38,424 bases of DNA from assembly GCA_030699355.1 (NCBI GenBank), contig JAUYMZ010000407.1, forward strand, positions 1 to 38,424, read 5' to 3'. The position numbers and the translations under genes are program-made. The first letter of the stretch is position 1. Every line of letters starts with the position of its first letter. This stretch comes from Bacteroidota bacterium (lineage in GTDB: Bacteria; Bacteroidota; Bacteroidia; UKL13-3). Shown one piece after another: positions 22,317-27,784 of the stretch. The notes beneath the pieces are model-generated. The model was not told the DNA's origin. It did not search any database and saw nothing but the letters and a program-made list of their open reading frames with translations.

Positions 22317-24311
22317 TCAAAAGGATTGTTTCCCATAAAACCGATGCATACTTATGATGTGCGGGATGCTGAGGCAAGATAACAGGATGAAAAAGATACC
22401 TAGGTAAATTTCTTGGTAATAGCTTGTAAATAGGGCTATAATTATAGCACCACCTAGGCTAAAGGGCAGTGATTGAAGCCATAGGATTTTTGGTTTTATG
22501 TGGAGTTCTTGTTTTAAATGACTCCAACCATGTAAGCTGTGCTGAAATATAAAGTAAATTCCAAAAGTGATAAGCAAGGGTAAAAAACTAGCCAACAAAA
22601 GATAGCTTAAGGTTAATGCCATTTGCTTTGATTTATACAAATAGATATAGGCTGAACCTATTCCTATAAAAGCGGTTTTGATGATCCATAGGCCGCTTGC
22701 TGATACCTCTGCTAATACCTCATTTGTTTTTAATAAGCTAATATGTTTTAATATCATCTTGGTTTCTTCGAAGTGGCCTGTTAGCATCACCATTAAAATG
22801 GTAAAACCCCACAGAAATGTTTGGGTCGACCCAACCAACCCCCATTCTTTAAAATCTGCTTGTCCGAAATGCCACGCCGAATAAAAGATAAATAGGAGTA
22901 GGGCAAAGTCGGGAATAAGGTACCAAAGCACACCAATGCCCGCTGCTTTAGATAAATACTTTATAATAAATGGCAATAGAAAGTACTTGCTTGCTGGTTT
23001 TTTGCTGGTAAGATGATCGAGGGCACCGTGGGTTAAACCAATAAACAAAAAGCCAAGCGCTAAGATACCCCAACTTAATATTTCGAAATGGAGTGCTTGT
23101 AGGAGGATGGCCAAGCAGGTGGCGATGCTTGCTATGCTTACCGGAGCTATTTTCCTGGCTAAGAAAGCAATATCTTTAAGGGCAAATTGTAAGAACAGCA
23201 AGATGGGTAAACGACAAAATATTTTTAATTCTTGCGCCATTGTGGTTCTCTCGTTTAAAAAGGATAATACCCTTTTAGTTTCTATGGCAGTAAATAATTG
23301 GGTAAAAATTACCTTTCCTTTTTCTGGTTTTAATTCTAATATTTTTAAAAGCAATCTATCGTAAAAGGCAAATCTTTTTGCTTTGGGTTTTTCGGCCAAA
23401 GGCTGATTTTGGGCAATGGATTGGCTTAACTCGTTTGCATGAATGGCCATTGCGTGAAAGGCGTAGCCTGTAGTTGGTTTAATTAAATTGGCTTTAGCGC
23501 CAGTGAATATCCAATTAGGGTGAATTTGTTTATGGGTAAGGCTGGCCGACGACATAGGAATAATGCCTTTTTCTGATTCTATAACGCGGTAGGATAAACC
23601 TTTTTTTTGGAGTTGCTCTTTTAAAATTAACTCGGCTTGTGCTTGGGTAATAGGTTCAGACCCAAAACAAGTTACCTCAAACAATGCGTGATTTTTGGAG
23701 AAAGGCAGCACATACAAAAATTGGCAACTGTTGTTTTGCGGGATATCAAAATCCATCATTGTAACGGCTTTGTTATCTATTTCTCCCGCTATAATTTCTA
23801 CTTCCAAACCATAGAAGGATTGGTATAAATGACTTTCGTTTTTTTGTGGCGCTTGGTACTTTGTTAGGCTGCTATCAAATACTTTTTTGGCAATGATGCT
23901 TGTGTTATCCAAAGTGAGTTGGAACGAGTTATCAATCACTTCTAATTTACCATCAAAAGAGGTTTCAAAATAGGTATGATTAATTTGAGGTAAAACAGAT
24001 TTAACCTCATTGTAAACATCAATACCTCTTATGTGTAAATAGCTCAAAGGAGAAATGGTTTCAAGGTTTTTACCAACCCTAATTTCATCCCATTGATACT
24101 TTACTAAGTGTTGAAGATTTAGTTTTTCGAGTTCATATTTATCCGACCAAAAGCAGAATGTTCTGTCGTTTACGTTTTTCTTTTGGGGTTCTATGATGGC
24201 TATTTGTTTATGGGCAAATAGATTTTTCTTAAACATGTTTAATAGCAACAAGCTATTGGCTGCTCCCAATCCAATGAATAGGTAATCAACTTTGTATAAC
24301 TTGTTTGCCAT
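22317..24311 (-). CDS. Fused lycopene beta-cyclase (CrtY) - beta-carotene 15,15'-dioxygenase (Blh)
   Basis: N-terminal CrtY (DYLFIGLGAANSLLL, QFLYVLPFSKNHALFEVT, IKPTTGYAFHA, RVLSFLNERTTMAQELKIFCRLPILLFLQFAL) continuous with a C-terminal Blh membrane domain (GLTHGALDHL, SAWHFGQADF, QHSLHGWSHL, SIPHIISMHRFY). Confidence 0.9.
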   Translation of the reverse strand: MANKLYKVDYLFIGLGAANSLLLLNMFKKNLFAHKQIAIIEPQKKNVNDRTFCFWSDKYELEKLNLQHLVKYQWDEIRVGKNLETISPLSYLHIRGIDVYNEVKSVLPQINHTYFETSFDGKLEVIDNSFQLTLDNTSIIAKKVFDSSLTKYQAPQKNESHLYQSFYGLEVEIIAGEIDNKAVTMMDFDIPQNNSCQFLYVLPFSKNHALFEVTCFGSEPITQAQAELILKEQLQKKGLSYRVIESEKGIIPMSSASLTHKQIHPNWIFTGAKANLIKPTTGYAFHAMAIHANELSQSIAQNQPLAEKPKAKRFAFYDRLLLKILELKPEKGKVIFTQLFTAIETKRVLSFLNERTTMAQELKIFCRLPILLFLQFALKDIAFLARKIAPVSIASIATCLAILLQALHFEILSWGILALGFLFIGLTHGALDHLTSKKPASKYFLLPFIIKYLSKAAGIGVLWYLIPDFALLLFIFYSAWHFGQADFKEWGLVGSTQTFLWGFTILMVMLTGHFEETKMILKHISLLKTNEVLAEVSASGLWIIKTAFIGIGSAYIYLYKSKQMALTLSYLLLASFLPLLITFGIYFIFQHSLHGWSHLKQELHIKPKILWLQSLPFSLGGAIIIALFTSYYQEIYLGIFFILLSCLSIPHIISMHRFYGKQSF

Positions 24312-24325
24312 GTTTTAGGTAATAA

Positions 24326-24359
24326 AATAGGGATATACTTGTGAAAATATATCCCTATT
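24326..24359 (-). terminator. Hairpin between rhodopsin and crtY-blh (candidate attenuator/leaky terminator)
   Basis: 12-bp perfect stem AATAGGGATATA / TATATCCCTATT, 10-nt loop, followed on the minus strand by TTATT. Confidence 0.6.
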
Positions 24360-24373
24360 CATATTTGTAAAAA

Positions 24374-25093
24374 TTAGTCCTCAGCGTTTCTACTTAAAGT
24401 GTAAATAACTAAACCAAAACCAATTTTGTTGATGGCATCAGCGATGTTGTATACGATGTCCATAGCATGAGTTGCTGCGGCAGGGTCGCTTACCAATTGA
24501 ATACCGAATAATCCACCTGGGGTTCCAAGGATATAACCTAAAGGATAAATAGCCCAACCAACCAATACGAACCAAGCCAATACTCTTGTAGCTTTTGCTA
24601 CTTGTACGCCAGCTGATTGAGATAGTTTTGCAACTTCACCAAACCAGATTAAGTAAACGATGTAGAAATAAGCGGCACCTGAGATAACACCCCAGAGAAC
24701 ACTGTTTTCTCTGTCGATAGTTTCACCAAAATAACCTGTTACCAACATCACTAAAGAAGCGGCGATAAGTTTCCACAATAATCCAATTTTAGCGCCGGCT
24801 TTCTTGGTAATTAAGTAGAATTCAACACACATCAAAGGTACAGTAAGAATCCAATCTACGTATCTAAAGAATGTTGGCGAATCGCCCGTTGCGAGGTTGT
24901 AGCCTCTCATGTAATAGTAATGTACAGCAGCAATAAAGGTAATTAAACCTGATACTAAAACTGAAGTACGCCATTTTTGAGGAGTGTTACCTAGCTCAAA
25001 AAAGAAGAAAACAGACGCGGCCATCATGGCCATTGTTCCGATAAAAAATGTGAATGCCACATAATTATCGCTAGCGATTTTTAAATGTTCCAT
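24374..25093 (-). CDS. Proteorhodopsin-type light-driven proton pump
   Basis: FFRYVDWILTVPLMCVEFYL (D80/T84/E91 = DTE motif, M88 at tuning site), H58 in AAVHYYYMRGY, retinal lysine K223 in ADAINKIGFG. Confidence 0.96.
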   Translation of the reverse strand: MEHLKIASDNYVAFTFFIGTMAMMAASVFFFFELGNTPQKWRTSVLVSGLITFIAAVHYYYMRGYNLATGDSPTFFRYVDWILTVPLMCVEFYLITKKAGAKIGLLWKLIAASLVMLVTGYFGETIDRENSVLWGVISGAAYFYIVYLIWFGEVAKLSQSAGVQVAKATRVLAWFVLVGWAIYPLGYILGTPGGLFGIQLVSDPAAATHAMDIVYNIADAINKIGFGLVIYTLSRNAED

Positions 25094-25310: not shown

Positions 25311-26810
25311 TCACTTAAAGCACAAGTTTTGCAATTGAGTGAAGGTTTGAGAATCGGCGAGGTTATATGATTTCCAGGAGTAATTTTTCTTTTCGTCGCT
25401 TAAAACATGGTAAAAAATTTGGGCTTCTAAGCGGCACATTTCTGCGCTTTCACCACTAGATTTATTGGTTTCATACCAATAGGAGGCAAGAGCGGGGTAG
25501 GCCGAGTAAGATAATTTGTAGAGATATTTGGTATCGGCTATTTTATTGGTTTGAAGCGAATAATTGATGTGATGTTGGGCAATGTGTTTGTCCCAATTTA
25601 TGGTGCTGGCGCCTATCAAAAGTGTATACCAAATAAAAGAATTGGTTCGAACCAAAAAGTAGTTGCTGCGTTGGTATTGAATTTTATAAAATGTAAGGAA
25701 TAAACCAATGATTGAGCAGGCCAGAAAAAAGTAAACACCAATGCGTTTGTAGGTATATAATTCTGTTTCGTGGATGTACAAATAGTTTCTGTAAGCAGCG
25801 GTTAAAATTAACCAGACATTTAGGGCAATCCAAATATAGCTGAGTGTTTTTGTATGCGAATTTTGGTTAAAATTTTGGCTGCCTCTAAATACCCACAAGA
25901 TAATGGAAACGGCAAGAATGATAGACCAAATGAGCGCGTCTACACCTTGGTGAACATATTCAGAATAGCTAAGTCCTTGAGGCATTATTTGATTGGATAG
26001 GTGGTAGGTATCTATTAGGTTTACGAGCAGCAATAATAGGTTCAAGCCGAAAAATATTATTTTGGCCATAAATTGTTCGGTTGTTTCTGTTATGGCAATT
26101 CCAAGAATAGCGTAAGATTTGTATGCTGATTTAGCCAGATAATTTCCCAATTTTGATTCGCTTTGGGCAAGTTTGTTTAGGATATAAGGTTTGAAAAAAG
26201 TACTTAGTAGAAAAACGCCAAATAGGTAGTGAATGATAAGGGGTAGGGAGATAAATTCTGTGTTTAAATTTTTAATGAATTGGTCGAAGCCTGCGCTCAT
26301 ATTTCTATATATGGCAAAGAAAATTATAAAAATGAGGGCACTAAAAATTCCAGCAAATTTGTAATTGATATTTTTCTCGGTAGGTATTTCATCTTGGTTT
26401 GTTTGTTGGGCTGTTTTATTAAACATGGCAATAAATTTTATGAAAGGTGTGCTAATCCAAGCATACAATGCATGCAGCAGATTGCTGATTAAATTTTGAT
26501 TTTCTACCACAAGGTTGATGGAGAGCATAAGCAGGGCAGTAATGTTGGCAAGTATGGATAAAAAGTGCCCGTGGAGGAGCGCGGCTGTGGAAGAGAGCAG
26601 GGCGGCAGCACTAAAAATTAGATTGGATTTAAGGAGCATTTTTTGCGGATGAATCCAGCATTGGAGGCCAATGAGGATGATATTTAAAAGCAAAATGTTT
26701 ACCCCAATTCCTTCTTGGTAAATTAAAAATGTGTAGGCTATGCCTGCTGCTAAACTGATTTTGTTGGTTTTCATTTTTTTTGTATTATTTAAAAGTGCTT
26801 TGAGTTTCAA
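25311..26810 (-). CDS. DUF4173/DUF4153-like polytopic membrane protein (start may be ATG at 26774)
   Basis: Many TM segments; adjacent to a winged-helix regulator as often seen in Bacteroidota. Confidence 0.65.
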   Translation of the reverse strand: MKLKALLNNTKKMKTNKISLAAGIAYTFLIYQEGIGVNILLLNIILIGLQCWIHPQKMLLKSNLIFSAAALLSSTAALLHGHFLSILANITALLMLSINLVVENQNLISNLLHALYAWISTPFIKFIAMFNKTAQQTNQDEIPTEKNINYKFAGIFSALIFIIFFAIYRNMSAGFDQFIKNLNTEFISLPLIIHYLFGVFLLSTFFKPYILNKLAQSESKLGNYLAKSAYKSYAILGIAITETTEQFMAKIIFFGLNLLLLLVNLIDTYHLSNQIMPQGLSYSEYVHQGVDALIWSIILAVSIILWVFRGSQNFNQNSHTKTLSYIWIALNVWLILTAAYRNYLYIHETELYTYKRIGVYFFLACSIIGLFLTFYKIQYQRSNYFLVRTNSFIWYTLLIGASTINWDKHIAQHHINYSLQTNKIADTKYLYKLSYSAYPALASYWYETNKSSGESAEMCRLEAQIFYHVLSDEKKNYSWKSYNLADSQTFTQLQNLCFK

Positions 26811-26834
26811 AGTAAATGGGTAAAAAAATATAGT

Positions 26835-27134
26835 TTATGATTTCAGTAATTTTTCGAGGGCATTTAGGTGAACTTTAAATTCGGCCTTACCCAGTTTGCT
26901 TGCCTCAAAAACGGTATGTGGTTTTTTGCCAATAAAGTTTTTATGAACCAGCACATATTCGAGTTTTTCGAGGGCACTAATATGACTGGCTAAATTGCCA
27001 TCTGTAAGATTTAGAAGCTCTTTCATGGTATTAAAATCTACCTGGTCGTTTACCATTAGCACCGACATGATTCCGAGGCGAATTCGGCTTTCGAAGGCCT
27101 TATTTAATTGCGCTATGTTAAAAGAATTTGCCAA
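26835..27134 (-). CDS. Winged-helix transcriptional regulator (MarR/ArsR-like, short)
   Basis: NKAFESRIRLGIMSVLMVNDQVDFNTMKELLNLTDGNLASHISALEKLEYVLVHKNF; start likely TTG 27134 or ATT 27137, because the ORF's first ATG lies inside the upstream gene. Confidence 0.82.
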   Translation of the reverse strand: MANSFNIAQLNKAFESRIRLGIMSVLMVNDQVDFNTMKELLNLTDGNLASHISALEKLEYVLVHKNFIGKKPHTVFEASKLGKAEFKVHLNALEKLLKS

Positions 27135-27142
27135 AATACTGC

Positions 27143-27784
27143 TTATTTTTTTTCGAAAGTAAAATAGGCGATGGTGCCATAAATAATATGAACTAAACCA
27201 AAACCCAATGCCCAAAATAGGAGTCCGTGGTTTATAAAAACAGCGGCAAGTAAGCCAAGGCTAATCTGAACCAAACCCAGGTATTTAATATGCTCAAAAG
27301 TATATTTACTGGCATTTACAAGAGCTAGTCCGTAAAACACCAAAGTAGCAGGAGCCACCATTCCGGTATATCCTTGAACTACCATAATAAGGCAAAACAT
27401 ACCGCCTGTTGCCAAGGGAATAGCCATATTGTACATGAGTTGTTTACCAGAGTTTGTCCAAACTTTTTCGCCCGCTTTTCTTGCTTTTTTAACAGTGAGG
27501 TAAGTTGAGGTAAAAAGCGATAATACCAAAACCGATAAGGCGTCTATTAAGAAGAAGGTAACAAAGGGCATATTCATTTCTCCTTTTTCGTTTTTAGCAT
27601 ATTCAAAGTAGGGCAAATTGCCATGTTTGGTTTGTAAATAAAGATAGGCAGCTGCTGCACCCGCCAATGCAAATAATCCAACAAAAACACCCGACAGGCC
27701 ATTTAATGATAAAAAACGAGATGAGCGTTCCATCATTTTGCGGATGTCGTGGAGGGCTTCTAATTGTTCTTCGGTATTCGACAT
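27143..27784 (-). CDS. Conserved membrane protein of unknown function
   Basis: Several TM segments; immediately upstream of the winged-helix regulator. Confidence 0.7.
   Translation of the reverse strand: MSNTEEQLEALHDIRKMMERSSRFLSLNGLSGVFVGLFALAGAAAAYLYLQTKHGNLPYFEYAKNEKGEMNMPFVTFFLIDALSVLVLSLFTSTYLTVKKARKAGEKVWTNSGKQLMYNMAIPLATGGMFCLIMVVQGYTGMVAPATLVFYGLALVNASKYTFEHIKYLGLVQISLGLLAAVFINHGLLFWALGFGLVHIIYGTIAYFTFEKK

Follow-up and report, generated by a model that had tools for sequence, protein, structure and literature searches.

A single-ORF fusion of lycopene cyclase and Blh, widespread in uncultured Bacteroidota, as a candidate lycopene-to-retinal enzyme beside rhodopsin

Every rhodopsin phototroph requires a supply of retinal. 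In the protist Thecamonas trahens, CrtI, CrtB, CrtYc/d and Blh are encoded in one protein (PMC10016063), and this is the closest precedent for the protein described here. Other fusions, namely CrtYB/CrtBY, CrtIBY and the verrucomicrobial CrtIB, join consecutive carotenoid steps and have been argued to limit the loss of intermediates (PMC10284914). For the dioxygenase, mutagenesis of 66A03 Blh has identified four essential histidines (His21, 78, 188 and 192), and replacing any one of them by Ala leaves <5% activity (PMC9227343). A search of open-licence PMC papers found no account of CrtY fused to Blh in bacteria.

We analyzed a stretch of 38,424 nucleotides (the window) from a member of the Bacteroidota, in which a first-pass annotation, made from the letters alone, had proposed that an uninterrupted 664-aa ORF joins the lycopene cyclase CrtY to Blh. 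The ORF is indeed single and unbroken and lies on the minus strand, which that annotation had left unstated, with its ATG at 24311; the plus strand across the same interval has many stops (Table 1). All of the CrtY and Blh motifs quoted at first pass are present in the fusion, and the domain boundaries could be set by profile search, with both halves over their Pfam cut-offs: Lycopene_cycl (PF05834) matches residues 9-371 (E 4e-43, 148 bits against a cut-off of 23.4, profile positions 1-373 of 380) and BCD (PF15461) matches residues 420-655 (E 2e-29, 103.7 bits against 28). The curated Brp/Blh cut-off of NCBIfam is also exceeded (TIGR03753, 121.1 against 95.25 bits). When the fusion is compared with its 93% identical relative, dN/dS is 0.15 in the CrtY half and 0.21 in both the linker and the Blh half, indicating that both halves are constrained by purifying selection. 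Within its own genome the fusion is the sole match to itself and the sole match to the BCD profile.

Table 1. Coordinates of the fusion, its parts and neighboring features in the window.
Feature	Position	Strand	Basis
crtY-blh fusion CDS, 664 aa, ATG start	22317..24311	-	homologous single ORFs, best 80 of 288 relatives
lycopene cyclase (CrtY) half, residues 9-371, FAD fold	23199..24287	-	PF05834; geranylgeranyl reductase fold match; conservation
junction, residues 372-419, no flexible linker predicted	23055..23198	-	AlphaFold2, block pLDDT >90
Blh half (BCD, residues 420-655)	22347..23054	-	PF15461 and TIGR03753 over cut-off; model pLDDT 95.3
H428 (HGALDH), invariant in fused and stand-alone Blh	23028..23030	-	alignment
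H481 (WHFGQ), invariant in fused and stand-alone Blh	22869..22871	-	alignment
H513 (with E516), in 94/95 fused proteins	22773..22775	-	alignment
H591 (QHS), equivalent of 66A03 Blh H188, invariant	22539..22541	-	alignment
G595, at position of 66A03 Blh essential H192	22527..22529	-	alignment; PMC9227343
H598, one helical turn past missing His; His in 88/95 fused	22518..22520	-	alignment
H651 (PH), invariant in fused and stand-alone Blh	22359..22361	-	alignment
proteorhodopsin-type proton pump, 239 aa, DTE motif (D-W-I-L-T...E)	24374..25093	-	PF01036; 9jov/9jou
hairpin, 12-bp stem, 10-nt loop, T-rich tail	24326..24359	-	62-nt rhodopsin-fusion gap

To describe the junction, the fusion was modeled with AlphaFold2 from 64 fused sequences (664 residues, pLDDT 92.5, pTM 0.83). 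The C-terminal helix of CrtY (residues 370-385) is followed within about five residues by Blh helices at 390-406 and 410-429, all at high confidence, so that the very short linker remarked on at first pass is predicted to be an ordered, nearly linker-less junction. In a fold search with the whole model, it is the CrtY half that gives matches, to geranylgeranyl reductases and related FAD enzymes. The Blh half, modeled alone with pLDDT 95.3, has no fold match in the PDB at E <= 0.001, and a sequence search for a solved structure of the whole fusion returned nothing meaningful.

The fusion starts 62 nt downstream of a rhodopsin gene on the same strand, the only rhodopsin of this genome, for which the nearest solved chains are the proteorhodopsins 9jov/9jou. 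When the 68 genomes of the family are sorted by the presence of the two genes, 36 have both, none has the fusion alone, 3 have the rhodopsin alone and 29 have neither (Fisher p 4e-16, a value that ignores shared ancestry); the co-occurrence survey suggested at first pass thus finds a rhodopsin in every one of the 36 fusion-bearing family genomes. Named GTDB genomes were scanned for further relatives of the fusion; 288 were confirmed, and the best 80 loci were analyzed. In 53 of these best 80 the gene immediately upstream, on the same strand, is a rhodopsin, in 8 a rhodopsin is found elsewhere nearby, and in 19 none is seen, in several cases because the contig ends; several fusion loci with long flanks also have no rhodopsin nearby. 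One genome (G027), rated 100% complete and having no rhodopsin match, retains only a C-terminal remnant of the fusion, a 193-aa frame at L203:2540-3118 on the minus strand, and appears to have lost fusion and rhodopsin jointly.

A hairpin lies between the rhodopsin and fusion genes (Table 1), and 46 of 48 distinct gaps, from this genome and its relatives, fold with z < -2 (mean -5.2), while the stem sequences vary between relatives. The element looks like a terminator or attenuator, which would yield much opsin and little enzyme. Upstream of the rhodopsin on the same strand, the region 25311-27784 (-) encodes a DUF4153 membrane protein, a winged-helix regulator and a 213-aa protein with no Pfam match. 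In its helix E the rhodopsin carries an LWG motif that aligns with the one in 9jov, and this recalls the Gly of xanthorhodopsin that opens a carotenoid-binding window; the same genome also has a CrtZ-like hydroxylase.

The genome contains a second, unrelated lycopene cyclase. A CrtYcd-type enzyme (PF18916, TIGR03462) is encoded on another contig (C22, L186:773-1929, minus strand), where its gene overlaps that of the CrtZ-like hydroxylase by 4 nt, and elsewhere are found crtI, crtD (658 bits against a cut-off of 500), crtB, a cruF-like gene and a gene for a NUDIX protein, which we read as idi. CrtYcd is present in 63 of the 68 genomes of the family, among them 25 of the 29 in which rhodopsin and fusion are both absent, and since it occurs irrespective of rhodopsin it is best regarded as the resident pigment cyclase. 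FAD-type CrtY, by comparison, occurs in the family essentially only within the fusion, with one stand-alone exception (genome G019). With a second cyclase in the genome, the fusion looks dedicated to retinal, branching off at lycopene.

We therefore suggest that the fusion provides retinal synthesis with a cyclase of its own. The CrtY half, with reduced FAD as cofactor, would cyclize both ends of lycopene to give beta-carotene, and the Blh half, as an integral-membrane metal dioxygenase, would cut beta-carotene at the 15,15' position into two retinals, to be supplied to the proton-pumping rhodopsin encoded just upstream. General xanthophylls would be made separately, by the CrtYcd whose gene overlaps crtZ, together with the products of crtD and the cruF-like gene. 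Fusion would fix cyclase and dioxygenase at 1:1, and beta-carotene would probably be handed over within the membrane. The intact domains and retained CrtY residues, the signature of selection, the co-occurrence with rhodopsin and the fused clades described below lend strong support to the bifunctional reading of the first-pass annotation, that is, to a putative lycopene-to-retinal enzyme serving the adjacent rhodopsin. It is likely that the protein acts as a bifunctional, membrane-bound 'retinal synthase' that is dedicated to rhodopsin and insulated from the xanthophylls.

How beta-carotene would pass from one half to the other is a separate matter. Direct channeling between the halves is plausible from the predicted model. 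The boldest reading, in which the FAD cyclase delivers beta-carotene directly, along a membrane path common to both halves, to a dioxygenase whose metal site has moved (H598, H513 and E516 in place of H192), and retinal production is thus kept apart from a parallel xanthophyll pathway with its own, unrelated cyclase, is put forward only tentatively and is on balance doubtful. Channeling competes with a fusion that works without it, in which the join would only set stoichiometry and membrane co-insertion, beta-carotene would diffuse freely, and the FAD-type cyclase would be kept because a bicyclase is needed where the resident CrtYcd may be a monocyclase that makes gamma-carotene for pigments of the flexixanthin/saproxanthin type. 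This alternative, which challenges the channeling part of the explanation and not bifunctionality, has nearly an even chance. CrtD, CruF-like and CrtZ-like proteins form a set typical of monocyclic carotenoids, and all three genes are present in this genome. PMC2889829 cites the single-peptide CrtYcd of Algoriphagus, another member of the Bacteroidota, as a monocyclase; if the CrtYcd of this genome is one too, CrtY would be required for any beta-carotene. In many relatives, moreover, crtY and blh are separate neighbors. A separate crtY would meet the same need, however, and some extra benefit is suggested by the fact that one fusion has persisted in several families; the junction, too, is predicted to be ordered and not a loose tether.

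When the Blh half is compared with 66A03 Blh, it is apparent that the metal site is not canonical. The first-pass annotation recognized the His motifs of the Brp/Blh family, and these are present, but only three of the four essential histidines (the equivalents of H21, H78 and H188) are kept; the equivalent of H192 is Gly. In an alignment of 95 fused Blh domains, one row of which is missing its end, this position is Gly, Ser or Ala in 95 of 95 and never His. In its stead H513 and E516 (each in 94 of 95), H598 (88 of 95) and W596 (92 of 95) are conserved. The change was considered as a trait specific to the fusion and this was rejected, as the H192 equivalent is also missing in 10 of 36 stand-alone Blh proteins, some of them beside rhodopsins, and the unfused Blh of locus L205 has H513, E516 and H598. 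These observations mean that the four essential histidines do not define the whole family, and that the altered site is probably older than the fusion. Among the stand-alone proteins, those of L204, L198, L201 and others lie next to rhodopsins and have no H192 equivalent, and the Blh proteins of L189-L192 have (V/I)H(A/S)xxS in place of WHSxxH.

The absence of a residue that is essential in 66A03 Blh (PMC9227343) from all fused proteins would be expected if only one half were active, with a degenerate Blh half serving the cyclase as a membrane anchor or carotenoid-binding domain and retinal being made otherwise. We regard this as improbable. H428, H481, H591 and H651 are invariant and H513, E516 and H598 conserved, the dN/dS of the Blh half is low, linkage to rhodopsin is strict, the genome has no other BCD-profile match, and stand-alone Blh proteins beside rhodopsins (L204, L198) lack the same His. 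From the alignment we infer that fused Blh more probably represents an enzyme with a relocated metal ligand than a dead one.

The product of the CrtY half can be questioned on similar grounds. The fusion falls below the lycopene-cyclase cut-offs of NCBIfam (94 against 209.5 bits for TIGR01790, and 57 against 215 for TIGR01789), so that these models give no assurance of specificity for the beta, two-ring product, and 98 of 99 fused CrtY halves have another residue in place of the third Gly of the dinucleotide motif, whereas 9 of 10 stand-alone proteins keep this Gly. The first-pass annotation had flagged this motif (GLGAANS) as slightly degenerate; the third Gly is indeed replaced, but its replacement in nearly all fused proteins makes it a lineage trait and not a defect of this copy. 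Both features would fit a cyclase with another ring product, for example with one ring, the fusion then yielding retinal plus another apocarotenoid, or a product other than retinal. Such an outcome is very unlikely given that the fusion co-occurs with rhodopsin, that rhodopsin needs retinal and that this is the only Blh of the genome. E212, CFW53-55, K278 and TGY281-283 are kept in 97-99 of the 99 fused CrtY halves and in all or all but one of the stand-alone CrtY proteins of Bacteroidota. Residue 215 (codon TGT, 23667-23669, minus strand) is Cys in this copy alone and Arg in 96 of 99 fused proteins, at a position that is not conserved in stand-alone CrtY, and may be a strain variant or a sequencing error.

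The source genome is fragmented into 478 contigs, yet the chance that an assembly or annotation artefact joined two genes is negligible, being refuted by fused relatives in independent assemblies: full-length single ORFs of 93%, 60% and 57% identity occur in independently assembled genomes, 30 of the 68 genomes of the family carry one (34-93% identity), and both domains lie in one ORF in all of the best 80 of 288 GTDB relatives. The survey of the architecture proposed at first pass therefore finds a recurrent one-ORF protein, and the CrtY-Blh fusion is real and widespread in uncultured Bacteroidota. Six further family genomes have a partial copy, mostly at contig ends. Among the best 80 of 288, almost all carriers are uncultured Bacteroidota, which their records label as Chitinophagaceae, Flavobacteriales, Vicingaceae, Crocinitomicaceae and similar. 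Across the phylum, 59 of 398 genomes have a BCD match, mostly stand-alone, with fusions in this genome and in two other families. A 958-aa BCD frame of genome G303, considered as a second fusion, was rejected as a long open frame in GC-rich DNA; the cyclase beside it looks like the CrtYcd type. One scan of viral contigs with the fused profile found no viral relatives.

Domain trees were built to examine the origin of the fusion. In the Blh tree (56 fused, 33 alone) a branch with SH-aLRT 97 separates all fused domains from the rest, and in the CrtY tree (62 fused, 14 alone) a branch with SH-aLRT 98 does the same; as these are quick trees whose fused and unfused sets come from different searches, a single origin is supported and not proven. 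The sister of the fused CrtY clade is the unfused CrtY of L205, a locus with the gene order rhodopsin, crtY, blh in which the stop of crtY overlaps the start of blh. Unfused crtY/blh pairs overlap or abut in other families of the phylum, as in the rhodopsin loci L189-L192 of another family, where the two genes overlap by about 37 nt in different frames. Loss of the stop in such a pair is hence the simplest route to the fusion, most likely a single event in which an overlapping rhodopsin-crtY-blh order lost its crtY stop.

If this interpretation is correct, the last two steps to retinal would become one transferable unit beside the pump, which would explain how retinal is secured in bacteria that use lycopene for other pigments. 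Because the genome has a second, non-homologous cyclase, metabolic insulation can be tested directly, and the altered set of histidines, in a fold for which no solved relative was found, raises questions about the true metal site of the Blh family. The fusion could also be a one-gene source of retinal in engineering.

Comparison with known systems sets the fusion apart from each of them. The Thecamonas protein likewise has a lycopene cyclase and a C-terminal Blh in one polypeptide, with a proposed link to retinal, but it is eukaryotic, has four domains and uses a CrtYc/d cyclase that is non-homologous to FAD-type CrtY. CrtYB/CrtBY, CrtIBY and CrtIB differ in having neither a cleavage step nor an FAD-type CrtY. 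66A03 Blh belongs to the same family (TIGR03753/PF15461), shares the H21, H78 and H188 equivalents and has a similar rhodopsin locus, although it is not the C-terminal part of a fusion and has H192 where the fusion has Gly together with H513, E516 and H598. Stand-alone CrtY (PF05834) has the FAD fold and invariant residues in common with the fusion, in which the third dinucleotide Gly is replaced and the frame reads into Blh with no stop. Rhodopsin loci with unfused crtY and blh, such as L205, L202 and L189-L192, have the same gene order and likely the same function, but there the two genes remain distinct reading frames, which abut or share a few to tens of nucleotides.
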